Shown here piece after piece: positions 5,244-21,553 of a stretch of 43,950 nt of DNA. Position 1 is the stretch's first letter; the number at the start of each line of letters is the position of its first letter. Source of the DNA: Candidatus Kaiserbacteria bacterium (lineage in GTDB: Bacteria > Patescibacteriota > Minisyncoccia > Phycocordibacterales > Phycocordibacteraceae). The notes beneath the pieces were generated by a model. It did not search any database and was not told the DNA's origin. It saw nothing but the letters and a program-made list of their open reading frames with translations. Both the position numbers and the translations under genes were made by a program. The stretch lies in assembly GCA_023264445.1 (NCBI GenBank), contig JAHFMN010000001.1, forward strand, positions 133,928 through 177,877, written 5' to 3'.

Positions 5244-5296
5244 AAATGGACTGGACAAGCGATGCATACCTCAAAATCCCGCTACCCGCGTAATCT

Positions 5297-5899
5297 ATGG
5301 ACCACATCGACGAACTTGCGAAAGCGCTTGCACGCTTCCCCGGCATCGGGCCGCGCCAGGGTAAGCGTTTCGTTTTCTATCTTCTCGCCGCTCCTGCCGC
5401 CGAGCGCGCGAAGCTCGCCGAACTTATCGCATCGCTCGGGAAAGATGTCCGGCAATGCTCCGAGTGCATGCGCTTCTATAACGGCAGTACCGCCTCTGTG
5501 TGTAATTATTGTTCCGACAAGACACGCGACGACGCGCAGCTCATGCTCGTGGAGAAAGACCAAGATCTCGCGGCCGTGGAGCGCGCCGGCACCTATCGCG
5601 GCCGTTATCTCGTCCTCGGCGGCGTGCTCACCCTCACCGGCAAGGGAGCGATTCGCAAAAAAGAATTACTGAAAACAGTAGAGAAAAGATTGAAAAGTGG
5701 GCTGAAAGAAATCGTCCTCGCGCTCTCCGCGACGAGCGAGGGCGAGCACACGAGCGACCGCGTGCGCGAACTGCTCGCGCCCTGGCGCGAGCAAGTGCGA
5801 ATTTCAGAACTTGGTCGCGGTCTCGCGACCGGTAGCGAGCTTGAATACTCCGACGCCGAGACCCTCCGCGCCGCTCTCACGAACCGTAAAGAAGCCTAG
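5297..5899 (+). CDS. recR: recombination mediator RecR
   Basis: FPGIGPRQGKRFVFYLL, Cys-rich zinc motif, Toprim-like VEKDQDLAAVERAGTYRGRYLVLGG. Confidence 0.93.
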   Translation: MDHIDELAKALARFPGIGPRQGKRFVFYLLAAPAAERAKLAELIASLGKDVRQCSECMRFYNGSTASVCNYCSDKTRDDAQLMLVEKDQDLAAVERAGTYRGRYLVLGGVLTLTGKGAIRKKELLKTVEKRLKSGLKEIVLALSATSEGEHTSDRVRELLAPWREQVRISELGRGLATGSELEYSDAETLRAALTNRKEA

Positions 5900-5936
5900 A
5901 GCTTCATCAAATCCGACACCAGATCCGCACGCTTTC

Positions 5937-5982
5937 GCAATGTATCAATTTTGAACCTATAGGTTCAAAATTGATACATTGC
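5937..5982. repeat. 46-nt perfect palindrome, core ACCTATAGGT (copy 1 of 3)
   Basis: gcaatgtatcaattttgaaccta|taggttcaaaattgatacattgc, 23 bp each side with no mismatch. Confidence 0.95.
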
Positions 5983-5997
5983 CGTATCGATACGGGC

Positions 5998-7338
5998 TTA
6001 GTAGCGCTCCTGGACGAAGGTGAGGGCCTTGCCCTTCAGCGTGGCGCGGCCGGTACGGCCGATGCGGTGCACATAGTCCTCATACGTAGACGGGAGGTCG
6101 TAGTTAATGACGTGCGAGACAGCTGGGATGTCGAGGCCGCGCGCGGCGACGTCGGTCGCCACGAGCACCGTCACCTTCCCCGCCTTGAAGGCCTCCAGAG
6201 CCCTCTGGCGCGCACCTTGGGTTTTATTGCCGTGGATGCTCTCCGCGTGGACATGCAGGCGGGAGAGTGCCTTAGCAAGTTTCTCCACACCGAACTTCGT
6301 TCGTCCGAAGACGAGGACGCGGCTAAACTCGCGGTCCTTGAGAAGTTCGGCGAGCACCTCAAATTTGTCTTTACCGCGCGGGATGCGCACGACGTCTTGA
6401 TCGACGTTTTTTGATGTGTCGCGTGTTTTAACTGAAATGATGACCGGACTCGAAAGGAAGTCGCCGATGAGCTTCTCGATATCCTTTCCCATCGTTGCAG
6501 AGAAGAAGAGCGTATGGCGCTCCTTACGCATCTTGGAGAGGATGAGGCGCATGTCGTCGATGAAGCCCATGTCGAGCATGCGGTCTGCCTCGTCGAGGAC
6601 AACCGTGCCGAAGTCAGTGAGCACGAGCGCCCGGCGCTCGAGCAAGTCCTTCAGACGGCCAGGGGTGCCGATGACGAATGCCGGGTTGTGCTTAAGCTGG
6701 GTTATCTGCGGGCCAATATTTGCACCACCGACGGCCACCATGCCGCGGAAGCCGAGGCCTTTGGCAAAACCAGCGAGTTCCTTCTCTATTTGCACCGCAA
6801 GCTCGCGCGTCGGCGCCATGACGAGTACGCGCTCACCCTTCTGCTTCATCACCTTATCGATAAGCGGGATGAGGAAGGCCGCAGTCTTGCCCGTACCAGT
6901 CTCTGCGAGACCGACGACGTCCTGGCCGAGAAGCGCATGCGGAATCGCCTTGTCCTGAATCGGCGTCGGGTTCTCGTACTTGCGTGCGAGCACGTTCGCC
7001 TTCAGGTGCGGATTGATATCGAAATCGGAGAACGTGTGTTCAGGGACGAATACCGGCTCCTCGGTCGTGACGACCGTCTTGTTCATAAACTTTGCGATCT
7101 CGCTTTCGGTCTCGCCGAAGACACCGAAACCGCCGCGCTTCCCTCCCCCGCGTCCGCCAGAACCGAAACCGCCACGTGCACCATACCCGCCACGAGACGG
7201 AAAGCGGCTTCCGCTTCGACTACCGAAGCGACTCGGGCCTGCACCGCCGCGTCCGGACGGACGCGGCGAATACGGTCGGTTTGAACTACCGCCATGAGAA
7301 CTGCCTCCCGTTTGATGATTCCAACGTCCTACTTGCAT
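5998..7338 (-). CDS. DEAD-box ATP-dependent RNA helicase with Gly/Arg-rich N-terminal extension
   Basis: AETGTGKTAAF, PTRELAVQ, VLDEADRMLDMGF, SATM, HRIGRTGRA; N-terminus SGRGGAGPSRFGSRSGSRFPSRGGYGARGGFGSGGRGGGKRGG. Confidence 0.95.
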   Translation of the reverse strand: MQVGRWNHQTGGSSHGGSSNRPYSPRPSGRGGAGPSRFGSRSGSRFPSRGGYGARGGFGSGGRGGGKRGGFGVFGETESEIAKFMNKTVVTTEEPVFVPEHTFSDFDINPHLKANVLARKYENPTPIQDKAIPHALLGQDVVGLAETGTGKTAAFLIPLIDKVMKQKGERVLVMAPTRELAVQIEKELAGFAKGLGFRGMVAVGGANIGPQITQLKHNPAFVIGTPGRLKDLLERRALVLTDFGTVVLDEADRMLDMGFIDDMRLILSKMRKERHTLFFSATMGKDIEKLIGDFLSSPVIISVKTRDTSKNVDQDVVRIPRGKDKFEVLAELLKDREFSRVLVFGRTKFGVEKLAKALSRLHVHAESIHGNKTQGARQRALEAFKAGKVTVLVATDVAARGLDIPAVSHVINYDLPSTYEDYVHRIGRTGRATLKGKALTFVQERY

Positions 7339-7419
7339 ATTGTTATAAAGCTAGAGAAATAAATTAAATACAGAAAGGCAAAAGCCTCCTCAAATGAAGT
7401 CTGCTCTCGTGTTGAAAAG

Positions 7420-7737
7420 TTAGGAGATCGAATCGATCTTTACTTTCAGGATCGGCTGGCGGTGGCCTTTGCGCTTATAGTAGCGGCTCTTCGGCTTATA
7501 TTTCACCACCTCAATTTTCTTATCCAATCCGGCGAGAACAACGGTGCCCTTGACCTCCGCGCCCTTGATAACAGGCGCGCCGATGGTCGTGTCCGAGCCG
7601 TTGTCGACGAGGAGCACCTCGTCAAAGACAACTGTGTCACCTTTCTTCAAATCCCCCGGGAGCTTCTCTATAGCGATAGTGTCGCCCTTAGAGACGACAT
7701 ACTGCTTCCCGCCGGTCTTGATTACGGCCACTTCCAT
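7420..7737 (-). CDS. rplU: 50S ribosomal protein bL21
   Basis: MEVAVIKTGGKQYVVSKGDTIAIEKL...YKPKSRYYKRKGHRQP. Confidence 0.95.
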   Translation of the reverse strand: MEVAVIKTGGKQYVVSKGDTIAIEKLPGDLKKGDTVVFDEVLLVDNGSDTTIGAPVIKGAEVKGTVVLAGLDKKIEVVKYKPKSRYYKRKGHRQPILKVKIDSIS

Positions 7738-7763
7738 AGTGGGAGAACTATAGCATTCAAGCG

Positions 7764-7781
7764 GTAAAAAAACAAGGCGGA
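7764..7781 (-). terminator. hairpin downstream of the 7813-8145 gene
   Basis: GGCGGACcggaGTCCGCC; T-rich tract on the minus strand. Confidence 0.7.
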
Positions 7782-7812
7782 CCGGAGTCCGCCAATGAAA
7801 GTCTGCCGCAAG

Positions 7813-8145
7813 TCATACTGCGTTGGCCGCGCGCATTCCTCGGCCTTTTTTGACCACCTTTTTCTCTACCGCCTCCGCGAGACCCATTCGCTTCCTCCTC
7901 AAGAAGGGCCACGGCTTGATGGGACCGTACATGCCTTCCCTGAAGAAGACCTTGAACTCGAGCTGGCCCGACGCCTCGTTCTTGAGGAGTTTCGGGATGA
8001 GGGAATAGTCGCACGCCCAGAGATCGCGCACCTTTCCATCTTGGCACAGAACGTCCTTATGGGCATTTTCTGCTCCCAACTCCGTGGCGATCACCTCGTT
8101 CGTGTGACCCGTTGCTTCTATGAACCACTTCTTGGTTGCGGGCAT
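7813..8145 (-). CDS. hypothetical protein (110 aa)
   Basis: Strong SD (CAGGAGGCAGAG-ATG), promoter-like TTGACG(8205-8200)/TATAGT(8183-8178) with 16-bp spacer, own terminator. Confidence 0.8.
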   Translation of the reverse strand: MPATKKWFIEATGHTNEVIATELGAENAHKDVLCQDGKVRDLWACDYSLIPKLLKNEASGQLEFKVFFREGMYGPIKPWPFLRRKRMGLAEAVEKKVVKKGRGMRAANAV

Positions 8146-8224
8146 CTCTGCCTCCTGTATCCAATGGACCAGACTCCACTATACGAGAAAATTACTGTTC
8201 GTCAAAATGTTCATATCTTGTGCA

Positions 8225-8406
8225 TGTGTGCTACGCTGCCGGAGCGCAGACCGTACTCTATTCCGCTCGAAAGAGATGAGCCGGGATCAGATCACAGCGC
8301 AATTCCGGGTGACAACGCCCGGATTCATCGCCGCAGAGAAGATGGTTGGCTCGGAGTCCAAACCCGCAGCTCCCCCCTCGAATCTTCTTCTGTGGCGGTT
8401 TTTTTA
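8225..8406 (+). ncRNA. candidate intergenic structured RNA ending in hairpin plus U-run
   Basis: TCCGGGtgacaacgCCCGGA stem; imperfect long stem CGCCGCAGAGAAGAT (8329-8343)/ATCTTCTTCTGTGGCG (8382-8397) followed by ttttttta on the + strand; no + strand gene feeds it. 5' end not determined. Confidence 0.3.
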
Positions 8407-9450
8407 TTCTTCTGTCGCGAGCGGTTTATCGAGGAGTTCTGGCTCAATGCCTATCTTTACTTCGGCGATGCGGTAGACGTCTTTGTCTATCTTGCCAAGC
8501 TCTTTATAGCCGGCATTGTAGTGGCTCACCGTCGTTCCAAGCGAGGTACCGAGCTTTCGATAGAACTCTTCATAGGTGCCGATATGCTTCCCGAGCTCCC
8601 CTACCCGCTTCTGGATATCTACGGCTTTCTCTTCGATCTGCATGGCTTTGAGTCCCTGCATGACCGTCTGGAGGTACGCGAGGAAGGAGGTGGGTGAGAC
8701 GATGATGACCTTATATCTGCTCGCGGCTCTCTGGATAAGATTCTCTTCCTCCCCAGCGCCGACCTGATTGGTGAGGAGGTCGTAATAGATACCCTCGGAA
8801 GGGATAAACATGAAGGCGAAATCCATCGTGTCTTCCTCGGGGCGGATATATTTTGCCGTCTCGGTGATGCGCATCTTGAGGTCATTTACAAAAGCTTTTT
8901 CAGCCACCACGCGCTCGGGACTTCCGACCTGGGTGCTTACAAACCGATTGTAATTATCGAGCGAAAACTTTGAGTCCACGGGCACCAGCTTTTTATTGAT
9001 GACGATGACGGCGTCTACCACCTCGCCATTCTTAAACGGATATTGAATCCGATAATCCTGCGGCGACATGACGTTCTTCAGCACCGTCTCGAGATAGTAT
9101 TCGCCGAGGATACCGCGCTGTTTCGGATTCTTCAGCAGGTCTTGGAGCGATTGGAGTTGCTCTGCATAGGTCTGGGTCTGGCGGCCGATCTCCTTTACCG
9201 AGGTCAGCTCGGTCGTGATTTCCTTGATAAGCCGATTAGACTCCGTGAATTGCCGGTGCGCGTTGTCCTGCATCGCCTTGGAGGACTCCGAGACGCGCGT
9301 ATCGAGCGTGCGCGCGAGCTCCTGCATCTGCTGTTGGAGGAGCACCATTCCGCCCGACTCTCCGGGCTTTGTCATACTGTTGCGTAGCCAGATAAAGCCG
9401 ACAACAAGCACTATGAGAATAAGGGCGGCAAGTAGTGTGAGAACATCCAT
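8404..9450 (-). CDS. rmuC: RmuC family DNA recombination protein
   Basis: N-terminal TM, coiled coil, GILGEYYLETVLKNV, VDAVIVINKKLVPVDSKFSLDNY. Confidence 0.9.
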   Translation of the reverse strand: MDVLTLLAALILIVLVVGFIWLRNSMTKPGESGGMVLLQQQMQELARTLDTRVSESSKAMQDNAHRQFTESNRLIKEITTELTSVKEIGRQTQTYAEQLQSLQDLLKNPKQRGILGEYYLETVLKNVMSPQDYRIQYPFKNGEVVDAVIVINKKLVPVDSKFSLDNYNRFVSTQVGSPERVVAEKAFVNDLKMRITETAKYIRPEEDTMDFAFMFIPSEGIYYDLLTNQVGAGEEENLIQRAASRYKVIIVSPTSFLAYLQTVMQGLKAMQIEEKAVDIQKRVGELGKHIGTYEEFYRKLGTSLGTTVSHYNAGYKELGKIDKDVYRIAEVKIGIEPELLDKPLATEE

Positions 9451-9470
9451 GCGTGTATAATACCAACACT

Positions 9471-9926
9471 ATGGCCATCCACGAAACATTGAAGAAATCC
9501 ATTCCCGAGGCACTCCGCGCCCACGACGAAGTACGGCTCCGAACGCTCCGCTCGCTCGTCGCTGCGATGACGAATGAAGTCGTCGCCAAGAAGCGAAAAC
9601 CAGACGAATTCCTGACCGACGATGAAGCGCTCGCGGTCTTGAAGCGTGCGGCAAGCCAGCGCAAGGACTCCATTGAGCAGTTTGAGAAAGGCGGCCGCCC
9701 CGAACTCACGGAGCCCGAGAAAGCCGAGCTTGCCATCATTGATTCCTACCTCCCCCAGATGATGAGCCGCGAGGAAATCATGCCCATTGCAAAAGCGAAG
9801 ATGGCCGAGCTTGGCGTTTCGAGTAAAGCAGATGCCGGCAAATTTACCGGTGCCCTGATGAAGGAACTTAAAGGCAGGGCCGACGGCGGCGACGTCAAAG
9901 CTATCGTAGATTCTCTGCTCTCGTAG
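9471..9926 (+). CDS. GatB/YqeY domain-containing protein
   Basis: MAIHETLKKSIPEALRAHDEVRLRTLRSLVAAMTNEVVAKKRK...GRADGGDVKAIVDSLL. Confidence 0.9.
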   Translation: MAIHETLKKSIPEALRAHDEVRLRTLRSLVAAMTNEVVAKKRKPDEFLTDDEALAVLKRAASQRKDSIEQFEKGGRPELTEPEKAELAIIDSYLPQMMSREEIMPIAKAKMAELGVSSKADAGKFTGALMKELKGRADGGDVKAIVDSLLS

Positions 9927-10895: not shown

Positions 10896-10970
10896 GGCCC
10901 TATCGTCTAACGGTTAGGACACATCCTTCTCAAGGATGGAATCAGAGTTCGATTCTCTGTAGGGTCACCA
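10896..10970 (+). tRNA. tRNA-Glu (CTC anticodon)
   Basis: GGCCCTA/TAGGGTC acceptor, anticodon stem CATCC-TTCTCAA-GGATG, T-arm CAGAGTTCGATTCTCTG, encoded ACCA. Confidence 0.93.
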
Positions 10971-12477
10971 AACGATTTGAACCACCATCAGATGGAGTTT
11001 TTACCTTGTAGATAGGTGATAATTCAGCGGTTTTAAATCCAGGATACTGGTACTCAAGGTTTTGAGGAAAGAAGAGTGGCAACAAAACTCTCAGCTCACC
11101 AGGCTCCAATTCTTTCCATTGATTCTGGAAATCTCGCACCACCCCCACAGCGAACTCCAGCATTGAATCTACCGAAGACTCTGGATTGCCAAGTTCCCGA
11201 TATCTCTCCTCCATCTCACGGATGTTGTTTTTACGCTTTGCTGCTTGCGTCATGTAATCAACATTATCAATAACACCATCCATACGCAGTTCCAATAAAT
11301 TCTCCAGTCCTTTTTCTAACTTCTTCAATGTGCGCTTAATCTTGAGTGCTTCTGTGACATTTTCTTTCTGTGTCCTCTCATGAACTACCAGCAATGTTTC
11401 TACAAGAGCGTTGAGAACAGCATCATTTGGGGTAATGTTTCTTACATACTCAGTAAAGTCTCTCTCAAATATTTCCTTTGCCACACTTCCTTTCTTTGGG
11501 CACTCTGGATTTATACAACTGTAATAGGCGTACTTCTTAGTCCTTCCTTTTACAAAACCTCCTGTCATGTGTCTCCAGCAATAGCCGCACTTCAATCCTC
11601 TTAAAGGAAAGTCAGGATTATTCCGATTGCGAGGGGCTTTTCTGCTCTTGTCTCCTCCCCTCATGATCCACTGCGTCTGCTCATACAGCTCTTCTGAAAT
11701 TATTGGCGTGTGCTTGCCTAACACATCTACACCAAGTTTTGGAATCACAACTCTGCCGTAATAGGCAGGATTTCTCAGAATTCTATAAACAAGCTGCTTG
11801 CTTATTTGAAGGTCGTGTTTGCTACGAGCGTTTGTAGTTTTCCTTATCTTGCGAGCTAGTTCTCTGAAAGTAATGGTTCCTCTTGAATATTCCTCATAAA
11901 TGAATTTCACGATTGGTGCCCGTTCTGGGTGTGGAATTATAATTTTCCTTTCGTTCACTATGATGTTTTTGTAGCCCCAAGGAGCCCCAGTAGGCCAATA
12001 ACCCTCAGAGGCTCTCATTCGCATGCCCGCCGTGGTTCTTTCAGAGCGCACAGCATTATCATATTCAGCTTGTGCTGCGAGGATACTTTCAGAGAATTTC
12101 CCCTGTGGTGTGTTCTCAATATTTTCCGTTGCTGATTTCAACTCCACACCATAATCTTTGAAGAACTTGCGAATGGTGTGGTAGTCCAGTGAATTGCGAG
12201 CGAATCTATCTACTTTGTAGATGATGAGATAGCCGACCTTGTCTCTGTTGCTGAGGCAATACCTCTGCATGCGAGCAAGTGCTGGACGCCCAAGAGTTTT
12301 TGCAGAAACCCCTTCTTCTCTAAAGATCTCCAATATCTTCAACCCCTCACGGTTAGCAAGTTCTCTGCAGGATTTCTCTTGACCTGCTAGGGAAAAATTA
12401 TAAGTCTGTTCCTCAGACGATACACGCACATAGATTATTGCTGTTCTTGGTCGTTTATCTGATGTTAAGTTTTCCAT
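10942..12477 (-). CDS. large serine recombinase (resolvase + recombinase + zinc ribbon + coiled coil)
   Basis: IIYVRVSSEEQ, YKVDRFARN, GYWPTGAPWGY, zinc ribbon CGYCWRHM...YYSCINPEC, coiled coil; C-terminus VTLQRIEL* is antisense to tRNA-Glu. Confidence 0.96.
   Translation of the reverse strand: MENLTSDKRPRTAIIYVRVSSEEQTYNFSLAGQEKSCRELANREGLKILEIFREEGVSAKTLGRPALARMQRYCLSNRDKVGYLIIYKVDRFARNSLDYHTIRKFFKDYGVELKSATENIENTPQGKFSESILAAQAEYDNAVRSERTTAGMRMRASEGYWPTGAPWGYKNIIVNERKIIIPHPERAPIVKFIYEEYSRGTITFRELARKIRKTTNARSKHDLQISKQLVYRILRNPAYYGRVVIPKLGVDVLGKHTPIISEELYEQTQWIMRGGDKSRKAPRNRNNPDFPLRGLKCGYCWRHMTGGFVKGRTKKYAYYSCINPECPKKGSVAKEIFERDFTEYVRNITPNDAVLNALVETLLVVHERTQKENVTEALKIKRTLKKLEKGLENLLELRMDGVIDNVDYMTQAAKRKNNIREMEERYRELGNPESSVDSMLEFAVGVVRDFQNQWKELEPGELRVLLPLFFPQNLEYQYPGFKTAELSPIYKVKTPSDGGSNRLVTLQRIEL
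10960..10968. repeat. putative attL core TAGGGTCAC (tRNA-Glu 3' end)
   Basis: Same 9-mer occurs at 18506-18514; lies within the tRNA 3' end and the recombinase 3' coding end. Confidence 0.7.
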
Positions 12478-12497
12478 AGCGATATAGTCCTTATCAC

Positions 12498-12544
12498 GCC
12501 TCCCTTAATTTCCGCTCGTTTTTGCGAAAGAATCAAGGGGAGGC
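12498..12544. promoter_or_regulatory. leader hairpin upstream of recombinase
   Basis: GCCTCCCTT (12498-12506) / AAGGGGAGGC (12535-12544) plus inner TTTC.GC/GC.GAAA pairing, just upstream of the start at 12477. Confidence 0.5.
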
Positions 12545-12578
12545 AAGATGTGGGAAGTTTGATTAGTGGGTGGAAATT

Positions 12579-12592
12579 GGTTTATAAACCCA
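12579..12592. repeat. GGTTTATAAACCCA palindromic repeat, copy 1 in element
   Basis: Identical 14-mer at 15633-15646, with similar flanks (AAGTTTGA...GAAATT..GGTTTATAAACCCAA). Confidence 0.75.
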
Positions 12593-12597
12593 AAAAC

Positions 12598-12810
12598 CTA
12601 ATCCGGTGGGCTCCGTCCCTCTCCACACTCTGTTTCTTGTTTAGGAGCCAGTTTTGGGTGTTTAGGTGTGTGGCGTACCCAAGTTCTATGAAGTTCTTCA
12701 GCTACAGCGAAGAACTTATCAACTAGGTCGCCATCTTCTATCTGTTTTCCCGATAATCCAGCCTGAAGAAGCGCATTTTTAATACGCTCCCTCTCATGAG
12801 GGAGAAGCAT
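12598..12810 (-). CDS. hypothetical small protein (70 aa)
   Basis: MLLPHERERIKNALLQ...; N-terminus resembles the adjacent 45-aa ORF. Confidence 0.55.
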   Translation of the reverse strand: MLLPHERERIKNALLQAGLSGKQIEDGDLVDKFFAVAEELHRTWVRHTPKHPKLAPKQETECGEGRSPPD

Positions 12811-12819
12811 GGCTCTGAA

Positions 12820-12957
12820 TTAACGGCTGTATGAGCGAGCCACCACGCAATTGATAATGCCGTCAATAAGTGCCTCCTTCTCTTCGTTGGAGTAGCGGCG
12901 TTTTGTTCTGTCTAGGAGAATATCCTTCAATCTCTTTCGTTCAAATGGATTAAACAT
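12820..12957 (-). CDS. hypothetical small protein (45 aa), not in supplied ORF track
   Basis: Own translation: MFNPFERKRLKDILLDRTKRRYSNEEKEALIDGIINCVVARSYSR*; N-terminus parallels MLLPHERERIKNALLQ of the next ORF. Confidence 0.55.
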   Translation of the reverse strand: MFNPFERKRLKDILLDRTKRRYSNEEKEALIDGIINCVVARSYSR

Positions 12958-12982
12958 AATGAACTTATTGCCCCGAACATAT

Positions 12983-13130
12983 GCTGTTTCAAAAATGAAA
13001 ACAGCCTAATGTCCGAAAGCGATTACCAGCCCCATGGATGGAGCTAACGAGGTAATCACTTCAAGGCATTAAGCTGTCTCCGATCAGTCCTGGCTCCCGT
13101 GAGGGCTCACCAAGCTGCATGGACTTTTTT
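12983..13130 (+). ncRNA. candidate structured RNA
   Basis: Nested helices: CAGCCTAATGTC/GGCATTAAGCTG (13002-13013/13065-13076, one mismatch, one G-T), GATTACC/GGTAATC (13021-13027/13051-13057), AGCCCCAT/ATGGAGCT (13028-13035/13038-13045); AGTCC...GGACT + TTTTT at 13086-13130. Confidence 0.45.
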
Positions 13131-13271
13131 CCTGACCCCGGAAGTTATAGCAACTCAGCCGGTCTAGGAGCTCATGCGTCGGGTTGTCCCGATGGTGTCA
13201 ATAAAAGTGTTTTCCATTTACCAGAACGAATCTGGCACTTCTACTTTAACAAATCAATATTTTGGTGCAAG

Positions 13272-13294
13272 TTCTACAGATATCTTTTGTAGAA
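13272..13294. promoter_or_regulatory. inverted repeat (possible operator) upstream of the 13307 ORF
   Basis: TTCTACA-gatatcttt-TGTAGAA. Confidence 0.4.
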
Positions 13295-13306
13295 AATTAG
13301 GATAAA

Positions 13307-13504
13307 ATGGGGGTGTTACCAGCTAAGAAATCCAATATGGCAAGCGGCAAGCACTCAAAGTCATTCAAGCTTGGACGAGATGCTCTTACTGGGGAATTTG
13401 TTCCCGTTGCACAAGCAAAGAGAAGCCCGGGACGATATGTCATTGAGCATGTTCCCAAAGCAGGTCACGGAGATGTTCCGAGGTTGCATAAAAAGCACAA
13501 GTAA
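13307..13504 (+). CDS. small basic hypothetical protein (start may be 13337)
   Basis: MASGKHSKSFKLGRDALTGEFVPVAQAKRSPGRYVIEHVPKAG... Confidence 0.6.
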   Translation: MGVLPAKKSNMASGKHSKSFKLGRDALTGEFVPVAQAKRSPGRYVIEHVPKAGHGDVPRLHKKHK

Positions 13505-13526
13505 GAGAACTCTGTGTTTATTTTAG

Positions 13527-14252
13527 TTGCGCGTTTCATTTAATCAGTTCTGCATGACCGAGGAGGAACAAATCGCACTAATTAAGAAACGAGAGGAGTG
13601 TGTAGAGAAGTATTTCAAGCACCATCGTGCAATCCAGACACTTAAGAAATTATCTGGAGATAAGCCCTTGACTCGCAAACAGGAGGTTTTAAGCGAATAT
13701 GGACGCTGGTTAGCACAGGTTGAATCCGCCCACTCCAGACTTGAGAGATATCCTATTTGGCTATCTTCCACAAATTCTGCTGTTGAAAGAAGAGGAATTT
13801 CACGAGTAGATCAATTCACATATCATATAGAGAACTACCTAGCCGCTGTCTATATTTTAAATGAGAGAGTCAGAAGACTGGTTAGTTATCTAGAGAAGCG
13901 AGGTGGCAGAAAACGCTGCAATACAACAACAATAGAATCTTTGCGAAAGGCTAGAAGAACATTCATGCTGTCACTAGATCCTCTTATGGAAATTAGGAGA
14001 AGACACACCCACGAAAAACACTTCAACGACAAAGAGCTCACAACGATGGAAATGGCCGATAAAGCAGGAGAATTTTCAAAAGACCCATCTGAAAAGAAAC
14101 AATTTAAGGGCTGGGCGATAATCCTACTACGCTTTCAACGCCACAGATGGAAGAAGATGTTGAAAAATAACAATCGGAATTTCTCTGTTTTACTTGGCAT
14201 GATTTACGAGCCGGCTGACAAGCTCGTATGGGAAATCTACCAAAAGACCTGA
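13527..14252 (+). CDS. hypothetical protein, helical, possible HEPN-like motif
   Basis: 241 aa, predicted helical; PLMEIRRRHTHEKHFND has Arg/His spacing reminiscent of Rx4-6H. Confidence 0.65.
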   Translation: MRVSFNQFCMTEEEQIALIKKREECVEKYFKHHRAIQTLKKLSGDKPLTRKQEVLSEYGRWLAQVESAHSRLERYPIWLSSTNSAVERRGISRVDQFTYHIENYLAAVYILNERVRRLVSYLEKRGGRKRCNTTTIESLRKARRTFMLSLDPLMEIRRRHTHEKHFNDKELTTMEMADKAGEFSKDPSEKKQFKGWAIILLRFQRHRWKKMLKNNNRNFSVLLGMIYEPADKLVWEIYQKT

Positions 14253-14299
14253 GCTGTTGCTTTGCTCTACCGTCTTTATGGGGGTAAACTTCTATATGA

Positions 14300-14430
14300 C
14301 CTAAACCAGTGGCTTGCCGCTGGCATGGTCTCAAAATCATAGGACATGGAAAACCCGTCATCACGGCATGTCCTATGTTGCAGGGGGAAACTCCTGTAGA
14401 CCCGCAAGGGTTCGTGGTGGCGGGTTTTGT
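14300..14430 (+). ncRNA. candidate structured RNA or leader
   Basis: GACC..CCAGTGGCttGCCGCTGG..GGTC; CATAGGACATG/CATGTCCTATG (14338-14348/14367-14377) with inner CCGT-CATC-ACGG; CAGGGG-GAAA-CTCCTG; ACCCGC/GCGGGT (14400-14405/14420-14425) then TTTTGTGTTGCTTTT. Confidence 0.45.
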
Positions 14431-14463
14431 GTTGCTTTTATTAGAAAAACATAGGACATAGTT

Positions 14464-14967
14464 ATGGACGCAAAAATCACATACGGAGTAGTTGGTACTC
14501 TGGTAGTTCTTTTGGCGGTTTCCGCATACTTCAATTTTCAATCAAAATCAGATGCCTCAACGACTGAAAATGCACAACAAGTAGAACAAACTGACACCTT
14601 GACTAGAGTAACCAGTTTATACAATCGGATGCTACCGAGTTTACCTCCGCATGACTTGTACTGTGTACCCAGCACGAAATCTTATTGCAATGTAGACGGG
14701 TGTAAGAATGTGGAGGCAAATGTCTTCGTGCTTCTAGGAAGAAAACAGAGTGGAGATAGTCTATTTATGGCTCGGTGTGATAATCAGCCCTGTGATATTT
14801 ATGACGTGAATCTCTCACAGTCTGGTGAATTTACGACCTTTGAGACAAAAGAACCTCATGGGATCTTGTTTAGGACATCTAACTTAGACCAGAGCTACAT
14901 TGAGGCTGTAACGCTAGGGACAGAATCTTTTGTTTCAAACGGTTTCTGTGCTCAGAGTAAAAAATAA
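14464..14967 (+). CDS. hypothetical membrane-anchored extracytoplasmic protein
   Basis: N-terminal TM (VVGTLVVLLAVSAYF), several Cys in the exported part. Confidence 0.75.
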   Translation: MDAKITYGVVGTLVVLLAVSAYFNFQSKSDASTTENAQQVEQTDTLTRVTSLYNRMLPSLPPHDLYCVPSTKSYCNVDGCKNVEANVFVLLGRKQSGDSLFMARCDNQPCDIYDVNLSQSGEFTTFETKEPHGILFRTSNLDQSYIEAVTLGTESFVSNGFCAQSKK

Positions 14968-14971
14968 TGCT

Positions 14972-15517
14972 ATGAAATATCTTGCACCATTCATTCTATC
15001 GGTTCTGATGATATTCCCAGTCTCTGTATCAGCAGCAACTCTTACGCAGAATCAAATCAATGCAATTATCAGCGTTCTCATGGCATTCGGCGTTGACCAA
15101 GCAACCATAAATGCCGTGTCTCTGGCTCTTGCTCCCGTAGCACCAGAAACTAGCATAGCTCCTCTATATCAGCCACCACAGCCTGTGCTTGATACCCAAG
15201 CACCAGTTATAAATCTTAATAAACTTGCAAACTACTTCAAGACAAACAAGTTCTTCAGTAATGGTATCTATGGCACTGCAGGTATACAAGAATCAAATTA
15301 CATCAGTGATACTGGTTCTGGTGTGGCTACTGTCCAGTGGTTTGTAGATGGAGTTTCTGTTGCTCCTGCTCATGATTGGAATTATGGAAATGGAAAGTTT
15401 GCTCTTGATGTGACCAAGTATTCTAATGGCGAACACACCCTTAGAGTTACAGCAGTAGATAAAGCCGGAAATAGCAGCAGTGCATCAATCACAATAACAG
15501 TGAAGAACCCGAACTAA
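14972..15517 (+). CDS. secreted protein with Ig-like (Big-type) C-terminal domain
   Basis: Signal peptide MKYLAPFILSVLMIFPVSVSAA; LTQNQINAIISVLMAFGVDQATINAVSLAL; Ig-like VQWFVDGVSV...GEHTLRVTAVDKAGNSSSASITITV. Confidence 0.8.
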   Translation: MKYLAPFILSVLMIFPVSVSAATLTQNQINAIISVLMAFGVDQATINAVSLALAPVAPETSIAPLYQPPQPVLDTQAPVINLNKLANYFKTNKFFSNGIYGTAGIQESNYISDTGSGVATVQWFVDGVSVAPAHDWNYGNGKFALDVTKYSNGEHTLRVTAVDKAGNSSSASITITVKNPN

Positions 15518-15632
15518 TGTTTAAAAAACAATAAAACATAGACTTCAAAATCAATTTATCTAATCCATAAATCAAAGAGAGTCGTGTTTTGAAAAACTGA
15601 TTAATAAATCAAGATATCAAGTTTGAAATTTT

Positions 15633-15646
15633 GGTTTATAAACCCA
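15633..15646. repeat. GGTTTATAAACCCA palindromic repeat, copy 2 in element
   Basis: Identical to 12579-12592. Confidence 0.75.
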
Positions 15647-15694
15647 ATAATCCAATCTACAAAGCAGACGATAATCAATTACATCTCTAAACAA

Positions 15695-16744
15695 TTACCC
15701 CTGGTTCTTTATTCCCATTAAATCATTAACTATTTGCAATACTGGCGTACTGCTTTCTTTCTCGGTTTTAGATACGAAACCTATTGGCGCATGCTTGAAC
15801 ATTGATTCCGTTGCATTTTGTAACATTTCCGATAAACGAGGTTTTTCCTGTTGCTCTTCAACAGCAATGAAATCTTCCAAGGTACGAGCAACTGCTGCTC
15901 TATGGCGATTCACAGCGGCAAGATGTGAATTAACATTGTAGTTCTTCACTATAAATGAAAGTCCATACCAGAGGGAAGCAATTATCACTAGTTTAGCGAT
16001 TCCTATACTCCAAATAGCACCAGCATCTATTGCTGTCCCTGGAACAGCCGAAACCTGACTAAAGTATGAGACGGCAAGAAAGCCAAGATACCAAAGAATG
16101 CCCAACAGGATAGCGTAGCTAGCAATCACAGCCCAAAACCATTTGTCAGCCGCTTGCTTGTAGTTCCTTGTTTCTAGGTCAAAGTGTGATGCAAGACGAA
16201 CAGCGGCACGCTCTCCTTTTGCAGAGCCAACTTCTTTCCCAGCGATTCTAAGTTTCTCTGTTTCCTCACGCACCTTTTTGAGTTCATTTTCAAGATCTGT
16301 ACGAATCTGGATAACCTTTTTTACTTCCTCATCGGTCTGTTGCTGGTTTGGGTTTTCTCTGCGTCTTTCTTCACGGAGAAAAGTAAGAATCACCATTACG
16401 ATCTGTCTGTAAACAGTATCGTAAAAACCATCTACTCTTGCTTCAAAAGCATCATGCTCTTGTTTAGCATTTTGGACAGCTCCAATATCAAATTTACGCA
16501 ACCATTGAAGATGCTCTACCAGTTGATTTATCAAAGACTCCACCTGACCAGCCTCACTCCGAAGCAATAAATCTTTATATCCCAAATCATATGCCTCTTT
16601 AAGCCAGCTTTGTGCTTTGGACAGTTTCTCGTTTGCTCTATCAAATACCAAACTCCCAAAGCGACTATTATCCATGGCGAGTTTTGCCACCTTCACATCA
16701 AATACATTCTCAGCCGTTATATCTTTTTGTTCTTCAGAAGCCAT
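15695..16744 (-). CDS. hypothetical membrane protein: cytosolic coiled-coil region, 2 TM, conserved-looking C-terminal module
   Basis: Long helical region, two TM (FWAVIASYAILLGILWYLGFLAV; IGIAKLVIIASLWYGLSFI), KNYNVNSHLAAVNRHRAAVARTLEDFI. Confidence 0.75.
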   Translation of the reverse strand: MASEEQKDITAENVFDVKVAKLAMDNSRFGSLVFDRANEKLSKAQSWLKEAYDLGYKDLLLRSEAGQVESLINQLVEHLQWLRKFDIGAVQNAKQEHDAFEARVDGFYDTVYRQIVMVILTFLREERRRENPNQQQTDEEVKKVIQIRTDLENELKKVREETEKLRIAGKEVGSAKGERAAVRLASHFDLETRNYKQAADKWFWAVIASYAILLGILWYLGFLAVSYFSQVSAVPGTAIDAGAIWSIGIAKLVIIASLWYGLSFIVKNYNVNSHLAAVNRHRAAVARTLEDFIAVEEQQEKPRLSEMLQNATESMFKHAPIGFVSKTEKESSTPVLQIVNDLMGIKNQG

Positions 16745-16832
16745 GGATTTTCATTGGAAATATTATACACTCTTACCATGTTTTACCGCATTTTTCAAGC
16801 AATAGAGCACTCTTTTGTGGTATGATTTTCGT

Positions 16833-17030
16833 ATGAAATGGATCTGGGAGAGAATCAAATTGAGCTGGGTAAATATCCTGTTGATTATCGCTATATTCTC
16901 ACTCTACATTTTCCTGTTCAATGACTATTTTGAGGTTGACCCTTATGGAGATGGTACTGCTTTCTACTATGCTTTGTGTGCTACTTTCCTTACAGTTTAT
17001 CTATGGAACAGGCAACAAATTACAAAATAA
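16833..17030 (+). CDS. small membrane protein (2 TM)
   Basis: MKWIWERIKLSWVNILLIIAIFSLYIFLFNDYF...; -10-like TATGAT just upstream. Confidence 0.55.
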   Translation: MKWIWERIKLSWVNILLIIAIFSLYIFLFNDYFEVDPYGDGTAFYYALCATFLTVYLWNRQQITK

Positions 17031-17278
17031 TTGCTGGGTTTTTATTGCTTGTTCTTTTTCTATTGAATTTTCAACTGCATGATTCAAGAAAAGAGAACGC
17101 TATTTTGCAGGATCGGTTAGATGAATATCAATCAGCATTAAGCGAAGCTAACGACAATATTGATTCAGCAAATTCTATGATTGAAGACGCCCAGAGCTAT
17201 GCTTGGTCAAGCTATGAAGATATGGGATACGCTCTAGAGAATCTAAGCACAGTGGATACTGTGTGGGATCCCTACTAA
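17003..17278 (+). CDS. small membrane-anchored coiled-coil protein
   Basis: MEQATNYKIIAGFLLLVLFLLNFQLHDSRKENAILQDRLDEYQSALSEANDNIDSANSM; overlaps the upstream ORF. Confidence 0.55.
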   Translation: MEQATNYKIIAGFLLLVLFLLNFQLHDSRKENAILQDRLDEYQSALSEANDNIDSANSMIEDAQSYAWSSYEDMGYALENLSTVDTVWDPY

Positions 17279-17280
17279 AT

Positions 17281-17820
17281 ATGGACATTATTTACACAAT
17301 ATTAATAATTGGAGCAATCTGGTATGTTGGTAAATTGCTTTTACAACAAGCACCAACTAAACGAATTGAAAAATATGAGGAATTTGCAGAGGTGATGTTT
17401 AGGTCATATCAAACCACAAACAAAGTTTCCTTTGGCGAGGAGAAAGATCCACCAGAAGTATCCAGGATGAGGGATTGGTATATACGGCTAAAGGAAAAAT
17501 ACAAACACGACCAGACAAAACTTGTCCAGTTAGCGGAGGACTGGAAAGATTATGCTTTTAATTTAAGTAGCAAGAATATCAATCATTATCTTTGGCTAGA
17601 GGATGAGGATAAAGAAAGTAGCGATGAGCGTTATGGAAAGACACGAGAAGCACACATGAAAATAGAAGAGATTGAAAATAGATTCGCTAACATGCTTGAC
17701 CCCCAATATTATCTAGATTTGGTGGCTGAAAGAAAGAAGAAACAAGAAGAAGTTGAAGCATTTTGGGAATCTCCAGAAGACAGGCGTTATTTAAAAGAAA
17801 CACCGGCTACAGAGCCATAA
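17281..17820 (+). CDS. hypothetical protein, N-terminal TM + helical cytosolic region
   Basis: MDIIYTILIIGAIWYVGKLLLQQ... Confidence 0.65.
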   Translation: MDIIYTILIIGAIWYVGKLLLQQAPTKRIEKYEEFAEVMFRSYQTTNKVSFGEEKDPPEVSRMRDWYIRLKEKYKHDQTKLVQLAEDWKDYAFNLSSKNINHYLWLEDEDKESSDERYGKTREAHMKIEEIENRFANMLDPQYYLDLVAERKKKQEEVEAFWESPEDRRYLKETPATEP

Positions 17821-17840
17821 AAACAGAGTATGATGATTCT

Positions 17841-18362
17841 ATGAATACTGAAAAACCAAATGTTGGACTCGTTATACTAATCACAGCTGTCATAGTAGGG
17901 GGTGGTGTGTATTATTTTACCACTGGTGCAAAAAATCTTGATACTAATAATGCGGTTCAGACAACTTCCACACCGAATCAAACATCTAAAGAATATGCTG
18001 TAATGGGACGTCAACTTTGGAGTGCATTTCAGTGTGCGTCATGGGCTTCTGTAACGGGAGACAGCGAAGAACAAGAAAGACTTTTCTTATTTGGCTATGC
18101 GCAAGGAAAGACATTCCTTGAAGCGTTGAATTCTGAGAAGATTCAGCGAGATGACATATCTGAGAATGTCCCTATTGTAGTCACGATGCTTCTTCAAGGA
18201 CCAACGGAAGAATTTATACTGGGTAGACTTTTTGAAAATGCACAAGACAGTGCACTAAAAGATGTCTTTCAGACCGGGAATGAATATAATTCAGAGAGTT
18301 TACGAGAAATCATTGCTGGAAATAAGTACAGGGAGAGTAATTGCCAACTGATTGGAGAATAG
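17841..18362 (+). CDS. hypothetical membrane-anchored protein
   Basis: N-terminal TM; WSAFQCASWAS...FLFGYAQGKTFLEAL...VPIVVTMLLQGPTEEFILGRLFENAQ. Confidence 0.7.
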   Translation: MNTEKPNVGLVILITAVIVGGGVYYFTTGAKNLDTNNAVQTTSTPNQTSKEYAVMGRQLWSAFQCASWASVTGDSEEQERLFLFGYAQGKTFLEALNSEKIQRDDISENVPIVVTMLLQGPTEEFILGRLFENAQDSALKDVFQTGNEYNSESLREIIAGNKYRESNCQLIGE

Positions 18363-18405
18363 CAGGAGTTTTAACTCTATTAGGGGAGTATTTCTAACTC
18401 CTGCT
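18361..18405. terminator. long-stem hairpin at the element right end
   Basis: AGCAGGAGTT (18361-18370) / AACTCCTGCT (18396-18405), perfect 10-bp stem. Confidence 0.5.
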
Positions 18406-18514
18406 TGACTGGCATAAATCCACGCTTTTGGAGAGAAGCGAACTTAACGGCTGCCTTGCTGATTGCCTCCAATTGCTCCACTAAGGGTTTTGAATCTGGT
18501 ATCGTTAGGGTCAC
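18380..18514 (-). other. Detached, in-frame C-terminal exchange segment of the serine recombinase (predicted to be rejoined in the circular form)
   Basis: Own translation from the att core: GTG ACC CTA ACG ATA CCA ... = VTLTIPDSKPLVEQLEAISKAAVKFASLQKRGFMPVKQELEILP*; same frame as recombinase ...RL-VTL-. Confidence 0.6.
18506..18514. repeat. putative attR core TAGGGTCAC (overlaps murF stop codon)
   Basis: Direct repeat of 10960-10968; TCA at 18511-18513 is the murF TGA stop. Confidence 0.7.
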
Positions 18515-19785
18515 ACTTTCTGTTTCCACTTTTTTTCTTGGCGAGCAAGTTGCACCCCATCGGCGGAGTTAGCAAGCAAGGCCTCTACGATGCGCTCGGT
18601 GCGGATAGATTGCGAACCTTTCACCAGAACGACATCGCCCGCGCGAAGCTGTTCGGGGAGGATACGCGCAGCATCATATGAGTTATTACACTGTATGACT
18701 TCGGTGCCGTTCGCCGGCACAGCAAAAGCTCGAGCGCGAATTCCCACCGTAACAACGAGATCAGCTGAAGCGCTTGCGAGCGCACCAACACGTTCATGCT
18801 CCATGACCGAGTAGCGCCCGAGTTCGAGCATGTCGCCCAGGACTGCAATACGCCGCTTCGCTCGCGGGAATGCCTTCAGGGTTGCAAGTGCTTCCTCAAC
18901 CGCCGCTGGTGAAGCATTGTATGAATCGTCAATGATGACTGAACCGTTTTTTCCGGCGAGGAGACGGCCGCGGCCAGGCGGGGATTCGTAGCTCTCGAGC
19001 GCTTTGAGTGCCTCCGAAAGCGGTATTTCAAAGTCCTGCGCCGCTGCGACTGCGGCCGCAACTGGAAGAAGCTGTGTCTTCCCAACCGAACCTCGTACGA
19101 TGCAGAAACCCTCTTCTCCCCCTGCACTTACCTTTGCTTGCATGCCAGCGACCTTCCCTTCGCTCTCATAAAAATCAACATCGCTTATGCGCGTGTTTAC
19201 ATCCTCTCCGATGCCGTAAGAAATGACCCGGGCAGGCGTGCGCACTGCATTATCGAATGCATATGCATCATCGGCTAGGACGATGAGCGGTGCATTTGCC
19301 GGGAGCGCATACGCCGGGGAAAATTCTTCTTCTCGTACTGCTTCGGGTGAAGCATATGCCTCGACATGGACCGGTATCTCTGGCAAGCGAGTGACGACCA
19401 CCATGTCCGGTGTTGCGATGCGCAGTATGCCTGCGAGGTCGCCCGGCTTGTCCGCACTGACCTCCAGTACGAGCATATTTGGATAATGATTCGGTAACAC
19501 CAGGAGTGCCACCGCCCTTTTCATAAGGGAGAACCATGCAAAAGGATTCTTCCAAGGATTCTCCACCCCCAAAATAGTGAACGGCACGCCAAACTCACTA
19601 TTGAAACTCTTCTCGCTCTTCCGGACATACAGGCGCGTCCCGAGTACTGCCGCTACCGCATCTTTCGTCGATGTCTTCCCCACTGATCCGGTGATCATCA
19701 CGATGCGCGGGTGGTATCGGCGTATGACGGCGTGCGCAAAAAACGCAAGAATCAAAACGACAATTGGCTTGAGGATGCTTTTCAT
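18511..19785 (-). CDS. murF: UDP-N-acetylmuramoyl-tripeptide--D-alanyl-D-alanine ligase (MurF)
   Basis: MITGSVGKTSTKDAVAAVLG, DDSYNASPAAVEEALATL, VAVLGDMLELG-like motif; ORF can start at 19845. Confidence 0.9.
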   Translation of the reverse strand: MKSILKPIVVLILAFFAHAVIRRYHPRIVMITGSVGKTSTKDAVAAVLGTRLYVRKSEKSFNSEFGVPFTILGVENPWKNPFAWFSLMKRAVALLVLPNHYPNMLVLEVSADKPGDLAGILRIATPDMVVVTRLPEIPVHVEAYASPEAVREEEFSPAYALPANAPLIVLADDAYAFDNAVRTPARVISYGIGEDVNTRISDVDFYESEGKVAGMQAKVSAGGEEGFCIVRGSVGKTQLLPVAAAVAAAQDFEIPLSEALKALESYESPPGRGRLLAGKNGSVIIDDSYNASPAAVEEALATLKAFPRAKRRIAVLGDMLELGRYSVMEHERVGALASASADLVVTVGIRARAFAVPANGTEVIQCNNSYDAARILPEQLRAGDVVLVKGSQSIRTERIVEALLANSADGVQLARQEKKWKQKV

Positions 19786-19798
19786 GATTGATGTTCGC

Positions 19799-21553
19799 TT
19801 ATCCCGAATGTGTCGAGACGACGCCTGCTTGTACCGGCAGGCCACGGTCAGGAGGTACAGCGTAATAGTCTATGAGGAAATGCACAAGGTCGAGAAAAGT
19901 TGAGTTCAGGGTTTCTGAAGCGTAGGTAACGCCCTTCGGGTCATTCGTGTAGAGCAAGATAATGAAGCGCGGGTTATAGGAAGGGAAGAACCCGACAAAC
20001 GAATGGAAGAACCGATCCGTGTAGTATCCACCGCCCGGCATCGTAAGCTGGGCAGTACCCGTCTTCGCCGCCACCGACATAGTGGGGATCTTTGCCTTGC
20101 CGTCGTTGAGTTTCTCATCAACGACTGCATCCATCATGCTCGTTATCTCGCGAACGGCTGTCGATGAGAAAACTTGCGTCGTCTTCCCCCAGTCAAGCGT
20201 GCGCTCTATGCCCGAATTAAGACGTACGGCGCGTACCAAATGCGGCGTCACCATCGTGCCTCTGTTTGCGAGCGCACCGAGCGCGCGCATCATCTGTATC
20301 GGCGTTACGGCAATACCCTGTCCGAAAGCCGCCGTATCGTAGCCGATCTGCTGGGGCTTCGAGAGATTGCTCAAGAGCGCATGTCCCTCGTTTGGCACGT
20401 CAATGCCTGTCTTCGTTCCAAACAGCTTCGTAAAGTATGCTCGGAAGGAATCCTGTCCGAGCTCGGTCGCTACCCATGCCGCGCCGAGGTTCAAAGACTG
20501 CACAATGACCTGCTTCATCGGGACGACGCCGCGCGCCTTTAAATCCCAGTTGCAGATGCTTGCGGTATTCACGGTGATACAACCCGTATCGGTATAGGTC
20601 GTCTCCGGCGTGATGACGCCTGCATCAAGCGCCGAGGTCAGCGTCAGAGGCTTCATGATGGAGCCAAACTCATGCACGTGCTCCACAAGTGGGTTGCCGA
20701 GCAGAGTCGGATCTACTTCTTGCAGATTATTGCCGTCGTAGGTCGGATAGCTTGCAAACGCAAGGATCGCACCAGTCGTGGGATCCATGATGATTCCCCC
20801 CGATTCTTTACTCGAATAGCGCTGTGTAACTTTCGTGAGGTCGTCCTGAAGGCGCGTTTGCACCTCCGGCTCGATAGTGGTTATGACGTCGCCCTCGCGC
20901 GCATCCTGCGCCAAGACAAGCAGATTACCGACATTTGAAAAAAGTTCCGCAAAGAAATTCTTATACAGCGAGTCCCCCGAGCGTTCGAGTGAATCATTGT
21001 ATGTCGCCTCAAGGCCAGTCTGGCCGGAGAGTGTATCGCTCGAGCCGTACGACACGATGCCAATTGCCTGTGCAGCGAGCGCACCTCCGGGATACAACCG
21101 CCATCGCTCGCGCAGTACCTGTACACCTGGGATGTGTTTCGCATCGAGCGCCTTTCCCTCTTCGTCAGAGAGACGATGCGCGATTTCGATATGGACTTGC
21201 GATTTCTTCGAAGCGGCCGCGAGGAACGCGTCATGCGAGAGTAGGCCGGGAACGACGGCTGTTATCGAAGCATACGCGCCTTCAGGGTCGCTAAGAATCT
21301 GTGGGTTTATCGCTACAAGAAAGCCGGTTGCAAGCGTCGCTGCGGAGATAAGCGTGCCGTCCTTGCGAGTGAAATAAATGGATCCGCGATCAAAGAGTCC
21401 ACTTCCACCTGAAGCAAATTGCCGATCAGCCTTTTGCGCATAGTCCTGTCCACGGACGATTTGTATGAAATACAGCCGAACGATGATGCTTAGCGCAACG
21501 AGGAAGACGAAAACGAGGACGAGGCGCAGGCGGAAACGGAACTGCGCGCGCAT
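19799..21553 (-). CDS. ftsI: penicillin-binding protein, FtsI/SpoVD type
   Basis: EHVHEFGSIMKPLT active-site region, AAKTGTAQ; dcw position. Confidence 0.92.
   Translation of the reverse strand: MRAQFRFRLRLVLVFVFLVALSIIVRLYFIQIVRGQDYAQKADRQFASGGSGLFDRGSIYFTRKDGTLISAATLATGFLVAINPQILSDPEGAYASITAVVPGLLSHDAFLAAASKKSQVHIEIAHRLSDEEGKALDAKHIPGVQVLRERWRLYPGGALAAQAIGIVSYGSSDTLSGQTGLEATYNDSLERSGDSLYKNFFAELFSNVGNLLVLAQDAREGDVITTIEPEVQTRLQDDLTKVTQRYSSKESGGIIMDPTTGAILAFASYPTYDGNNLQEVDPTLLGNPLVEHVHEFGSIMKPLTLTSALDAGVITPETTYTDTGCITVNTASICNWDLKARGVVPMKQVIVQSLNLGAAWVATELGQDSFRAYFTKLFGTKTGIDVPNEGHALLSNLSKPQQIGYDTAAFGQGIAVTPIQMMRALGALANRGTMVTPHLVRAVRLNSGIERTLDWGKTTQVFSSTAVREITSMMDAVVDEKLNDGKAKIPTMSVAAKTGTAQLTMPGGGYYTDRFFHSFVGFFPSYNPRFIILLYTNDPKGVTYASETLNSTFLDLVHFLIDYYAVPPDRGLPVQAGVVSTHSG

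Follow-up and report, generated by a model that had tools for sequence, protein, structure and literature searches.

We analysed a window of 43,950 bases (the whole stretch of DNA considered here) from a Candidatus Kaiserbacteria genome (G000), a member of the phylum Patescibacteria. In this window, an integrated element with a large serine integrase gene lies between a tRNA gene and a murF-like Mur ligase gene. The tRNA gene is tRNA-Glu(CTC), which was located by ARAGORN at 10896-10970 on the plus strand and is the target of the insertion. Its 5' part belongs to the host, and its final bases, including CCA, are supplied by the element. The murF-like gene (18511..19845, minus strand) is intact despite the insertion. 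An earlier note on this DNA had reported the 9-mer TAGGGTCAC at 10960-10968 and again at 18506-18514, and our count showed exactly these two copies, both on the plus strand, and none on the minus strand. They are the cores of the left and right attachment sites, attL and attR. The attL core forms the VTL codons of the integrase gene on the minus strand, and the TCA at 18511-18513 in the attR core also serves the murF-like gene as its stop codon (TGA). The element between them (10960..18505) is 7,546 bp long, and its GC content is low; that is, about 0.55 outside the repeats and 0.37-0.45 between them, 10-18 points below the surroundings.

The integrase gene occupies 10942-12477 on the minus strand and encodes 511 amino acids in its integrated form. 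Its N-terminal Resolvase domain (PF00239, 2.8e-32) is followed by a Recombinase domain (PF07508, 8.2e-12), a zinc ribbon (6.2e-5, just below the curated cut-off) and a coiled coil, as in large serine integrases. The short shared core of 9 bp and a quasi-palindromic attP, the attachment site of the circular form, also belong to this class. The protein matched the integrase family phrog_95 at 1e-86, and its longest structure match was SPbeta YokA (9dxd/9dxh). An AlphaFold model of the integrated form, whose predicted template modelling score (pTM) of 0.33 is low and which was used for domain order alone, gave the catalytic domain, the recombinase domain, the zinc ribbon, long coiled-coil helices (352-428) and closing helices, and was ordered to about residue 470. 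The crossover is at residue 505, within the low-confidence end. Therefore, what the integrated enzyme loses is an appendage, and none of its known domains is lost; all the recognised domains remain together after integration.

The integrated integrase ends in SDGGSNRL-VTL-QRIEL. The last five residues and the stop codon had been assigned to the host, and these coordinates hold: VTL is the shared core, and the host part is QRIEL and the stop only (10942..10959, minus strand), which is the antisense of tRNA-Glu. A detached tail is read on the minus strand at the distal end (18380..18514); it consists of VTL from the core, TIPDSKPLVEQLEAISKAAVKFASLQKRGFMPVKQELEILP and the stop codon TAA. When 18505 is joined to 10960, the two parts fuse in frame into a single open frame of 547 amino acids that ends in VTLTIPDSKPLVEQLEAISKAAVKFASLQKRGFMPVKQELEILP and a stop, so the proposed lengths of 547 residues in the circle and 511 after integration are reproduced. 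The attP thus lies inside a coding sequence, with the integrase frame open on both sides, as in phage Mx8 and the streptococcal rumA integrative and conjugative elements (ICEs). The predicted circular junction is GGTATCGT-TAGGGTCAC-CAAACG, and the predicted empty site is GATTCTCTG-TAGGGTCAC-ACTTTCTG.

The tRNA-Glu(CTC) gene and a convergent murF-like gene adjoin in sister genomes, with a spacing of 0-40 bases in G024, G037, G063, G065, G091 and G021; in G009 (L057), the tRNA 3' end is overlapped by the murF stop codon. The predicted empty site of the window, with its flanks joined, aligned with G009 without gaps across the junction (TGTAGGGTCACACTTTCTGTTTCCACTT against TGTGGGGTCACAGTTTCTGTTTCCACTT), and the boundary proposed earlier is matched exactly. 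Therefore, the insertion spares both the tRNA and murF. The empty tRNA-Glu in G009 reads GTCACAG, without CCA, and the encoded CCA in the window was brought in by the element. Like a tRNA-targeting island, the element restores the tRNA 3' end, as seen from the intact tRNA-Glu at attL and the empty site in G009. The same tRNA-Glu/murF site is a hotspot with remnants of 0.2-1.2 kb at L055/L206 (G036), L056 (G054), L060, L061, L062, L071 and L075.

The nearest integrases are those of L034 in G097 (49% identity) and L124 in G372 (44%), and both likewise end in tRNA-Glu. At the far end of each of these elements, a 44-codon frame begins from the same core (VTLTIQNSKPLVEHLKAISNIAGKFKTLQNKPIWSMAQSKELIP in G097 and VTLMLPNLKLYVNTFRELDKIISNFEKPLVLNTLHADALQRSIP in G372, compared with VTLTIPDSKPLVEQLEAISKAAVKFASLQKRGFMPVKQELEILP in the window). 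A relic beside tRNA-Glu in G105 (L205) has the tail VTLTIRNSKPIVQHLQEVARIAGKFRTLENNAYFTEVESKELIP, also of 44 codons. The window-type tails (window, G097, G372 and G105) each extend over 44 codons from the same VT codons without indels and end in I or L, then P and a stop. This pattern was found in only three of 106 family genomes (G000, G097 and G105), and the reversed-pattern control gave zero. The earlier note had tied its case in advance to homologues carrying the distal tail in frame, and in the closest relatives such a tail was found in frame at the distal end of the element. Together with the empty site in G009, these same-frame homologous tails give good support to the anatomy that it had claimed, in which a 41-residue tail is swapped for five tRNA-derived residues. 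As judged from these comparisons of sequences, the element almost certainly has its attP in the 3' coding end of its own integrase gene, and the C-terminus is exchanged on integration.

The relic locus L205 (G105:C9) has two window-type tails, at 1757-1891 and 2784-2891, about 1.03 kb apart beside tRNA-Glu(TTC). A window-type integrase is absent between them, and they are integrase-less mini-elements or relics.

Further relatives were found by scanning with a close-pair alignment (A3), used because a multi-sequence alignment (A1) was too diverse for scanning; a scan of GTDB contigs with the window integrase as a single sequence found no relative. Eleven of the relatives had organism names and came from Kaiserbacteria, Paceibacterota, Parcubacteria, Magasanikbacteria and Gracilibacteria. 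The integrase open reading frame (ORF) ran antisense into a tRNA in 9 of these 11, in 23 of the 32 best family members and in 21 of 27 order-level members (three duplicates included). The same was seen in 14 of 37 further, more distant members and in none of the short class of about 420 amino acids. Among the integrases of L033-L051 and L124-L150, the C-termini include peptides such as RGIEPR, GFEPATPSLQ and GGIRTLE, which are antisense tRNA. Such peptides will appear in protein databases as integrase sequence. The exchange explains why many integrases predicted from Patescibacteria are seen in truncated form only, with nonsense-looking antisense-tRNA peptides at their ends.

At the distal ends of the relatives, we found in-frame tails of the type V[TAS]xxxxNWNQLxxELxxW. 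A profile built from eight of these NWNQ-type tails recovered others outside the training set, including that of a tRNA-Lys element at 2e-12. The clade at tRNA-Ala has a related type, VDxGxxFWNxxxREL, and the tails are homologous (blastp to 1e-11). Because exact-match distal repeats of 9-12 bp often arise by chance, the distal ends were fixed by tail homology. Across the order, 25 tail cases of 19-46 codons were tabulated, in elements of 3.4-14 kb at tRNA-Glu, Ala or Lys, with V[TD]xxxxNWNQLxxEL as the motif of the tail family; the tails of L038 and L093 among them are weak and may be wrong. A pattern scan gave three orphan tails. A 4.7-kb contig (L125), whose integrase ends in EWNTIQNMVIKW, was considered as an unsplit gene and rejected; it has no match to the tail profile and looks like a degenerate antisense tRNA end.

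Other observations were made on these elements. A frameshifted NWNQ-type tail adjoins murF in G036. In L089 (Kaiserbacteria; 5064-9752), an element with an NWNQ-type tail apparently lies in a phosphofructokinase-like gene, identified by eye, and not in a tRNA. At the distal end of L128 (G123), two tails that differ from each other lie at 4753 and 5345 (integrase-sense coordinates), a distance of 592 bp, which suggests nested or tandem insertion. L127, L128 and L130 encode a protein that resembles, by eye, rolling-circle replication initiators; therefore, some related elements may, in circular form, replicate as plasmids. L086 and L094 have a helix-turn-helix regulator with an ImmA/IrrE-like protein.

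We compared the proportions of synonymous (pS) and nonsynonymous (pN) differences between tails; the pairs are not independent, so the pair counts are descriptive only. For the NWNQ-type tails, pS exceeded pN in 28 of 28 pairs (0.63 vs. 0.30), and in the Ala clade this was so in 13 of 15 pairs. One pair, L086 and L087, had a nonsynonymous rate (dN) of 0.04 and a synonymous rate (dS) of 1.34 over 24 codons. It has been reported that the LI integrase uses 25 bp per att half-site (PMC3783163). In codons 10-24 of the NWNQ-type tails, which lie beyond such a half-site, the mean pS was 0.87 and the mean pN 0.36. By these codon comparisons, purifying selection acts on tail codons past the 25-bp att half-site.

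Dyad symmetry was examined in 16 reconstructed attPs. It was centred at GTG|ACC (core bases 3/4) with 9.5 matches of 24, compared with a shuffle 99th percentile of 8.2 over the scanned offsets, and lesser peaks occurred at offsets 8-9. The centre therefore predicts GA (TC in tRNA sense) as the central dinucleotide.

The cargo of the window element (12598..18362) comprises about eight small ORFs, several of them secreted- or membrane-looking, without known family. The ORF at 15695-16744 (minus strand) encodes a coiled-coil-like protein with membrane segments, that at 14464-14967 (plus strand) a membrane-anchored protein common to the window element and element L144, and that at 14930-15517 (plus strand) a secreted Ig-like protein. 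The window genome has two more large serine recombinases, at G000:C3:223550-224725 (L002) and C2:6294-6968 (L003), and that of L002 runs antisense through a whole tRNA-Ser(GGA).

These results can be put together in one scheme. On the sequence evidence, the crossover takes place at the tRNA-Glu 3' end, with the core GTGACC in integrase sense, and the circular form must encode the 547-residue integrase with the conserved C-terminal tail. Integration carries the tail codons off to the distal end and leaves the integrase fused to a short antisense-tRNA peptide, with tRNA-Glu and murF intact. Many related elements in Patescibacteria have this design. By analogy with known systems, the tail probably has a regulatory role. 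It may favour the integration reaction (attP × attB), because the altered integrase of Mx8 is less active and because of engineered fusions of integrases with a recombination directionality factor (RDF). Without the tail, the integrated element would encode an enzyme that is complete but altered and would recombine less well or in a different way. Integration would then set its own direction without a separate signal, and a tailed gene would return with excision or superinfection. We tentatively propose, as a quite possible reading, that the detachable tail is a DNA-encoded directionality device of a phylum-wide class, in which the tailed form in the circle integrates and the tail-less form is locked or excision-favouring without a separate factor. 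If this is true, the class would be a bacterial serine counterpart of the archaeal suicidal integrases. If the tail controls direction, these would be single-protein, self-limiting integrases, and the choice of direction could be tested with natural paired enzyme forms.

Several observations weigh against the proposed scheme. The contigs and records searched contained neither a circular junction nor an unintegrated copy: viral contigs gave one distant relative or chance matches only and no circular form, and in phage and plasmid records nothing matched the C-terminus joined to the tail. All six matches of this joined query in 287 phylum genomes ended at the crossover, which would be the case if all the genomic copies are integrated. 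Three unbroken ORFs of integrase plus tail (L189/L039, L142 and L150) were rejected as free full-length genes, because each of their tails is part of an unbroken ORF with a second integrase. They look like internal junctions of tandem arrays, where one element's integrase meets another's tail, and what they show is that the frames are compatible, not that a free element exists. In an integrase group farther away (L040), the frame stops inside the tRNA-like core, and hence there is no tail swap. The window tail is without the WN motif, and over its 44 codons the gap from G097 is only moderate (dS 0.67, dN 0.42), with a stronger signal in the first 25 codons (dS 0.68, dN 0.15). The tail could also be neutral for direction. 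The tandem arrays, where a second integrase is fused in frame to the preceding element's tail, do show one natural route to regaining the tail.

The main rival to the proposed scheme is a bacterial "suicidal" integrase, in which the tail is essential, the integrated enzyme is dead, and excision depends on a complete integrase from a newly arriving or tandem element. Conservation of the tail under selection, tandem arrays where a second integrase regains a tail, and relics that are common at the tRNA-Glu/murF site, as if stranded, all agree with it, and the archaeal SSV/pTN3-type integrases are a precedent (PMC8371274). However, unlike in SSV, no catalytic, recombinase, zinc-ribbon or coiled-coil region is lost here, and the altered Mx8 integrase is reported to be less active and not dead (PMC4701971). 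We consider this rival unlikely, though it deserves attention. It is less probable still that attP lies in the integrase gene for compactness, with a tail that matters for the protein (stability, attP half-site binding) and a swap without regulatory effect. The first eight or so tail codons do fall inside the attP half-site, going by its 25 bp (PMC3783163) and the dyad symmetry, and the swap is trivial in the L040-type group. However, at codons 10-24, beyond the half-site, it is the protein sequence that is conserved, as their pS and pN values show, yet every integration removes these codons.

The other explanations concern the distal segment itself. In these elements, a single stretch of 44 or more codons stays open with a probability of about 0.19, and the 41-codon opening might be a random ORF, with an incidental change of the C-terminus. 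This explanation is refuted by homologous tails of the same length, frame and position in relatives, and by the family-wide tail profile and selection; we give it hardly any weight. The core also starts with GTG, a possible start codon, and L088 has ATG there, as would be needed for an independent small gene starting at the core. However, the upstream DNA is host DNA when the element is integrated and differs in every element; therefore, no conserved ribosome-binding site is possible. Because the homology also begins exactly at the crossover, such a gene has next to no likelihood.

Exchange of an integrase C-terminus through an att site within its gene is already known, in Mx8 (tyrosine) and the rumA ICEs (serine). 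The Myxococcus phage Mx8 is said to integrate in a tRNA-Asp region. Descriptions of its Int/IntX place attP within the integrase gene and report an integration that swaps the C-terminal 112 residues for 13 and makes the enzyme less active (PMC4701971, PMC6070905, PMC4383910). Mx8 and our element share an attP inside the integrase coding sequence and a C-terminus replaced upon integration. However, Mx8 is a phage with a tyrosine recombinase, whereas here a large serine integrase is carried by elements of 3-14 kb, with a conserved detachable tail and a spread over the phylum. In the streptococcal rumA ICEs, the att site is within the serine integrase gene, 3' ends are swapped and the integrase C-terminus is changed (PMC4701971). 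They are alike in the serine integrase, the att site in its own gene and the C-terminal exchange. They differ in that their target is a protein gene, with its own 3' end exchanged and a change of frame, whereas in our elements a tRNA is targeted and restored, and one tail family is found again at Glu, Ala and Lys targets. The earlier note had called its precedents analogous, not identical; the analogy stands, but Mx8 and the rumA ICEs show the same kind of C-terminal exchange and are closer than it claimed.

The archaeal suicidal (SSV-type) integrases have att in the integrase gene, which is partitioned on integration (PMC8371274), and their detached gene part is likewise found at the element's opposite end. 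However, they are tyrosine recombinases, split into N- and C-terminal parts, and the integrated gene is thought inactive; here the domains are those of a serine recombinase, and only the tail beyond the folded core is lost. Engineered integrase-RDF fusions belong to the same large serine integrase family and indicate that a C-terminal addition can set direction (PMC5737554). The RDF is a protein of its own that is there for excision, whereas in our case the C-terminal extension exists in the circular form alone. The open literature, to which the search was confined (subscription papers and preprints were outside it), contained no paper on this arrangement in Patescibacteria. Recombinases that disrupt their own gene were called exclusive to archaea in 2021 (PMC8371274), and according to a 2014 paper no serine integrase was known to use a tRNA gene as its target (Islander, PMC4383910). 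In Patescibacteria, a lineage of small elements both targets tRNA with a serine integrase and disrupts its own gene, repeatedly, with the tail kept by selection. New here are the combination of serine integrase and tRNA target, a detachable tail that is conserved, and the recurrence across the phylum.

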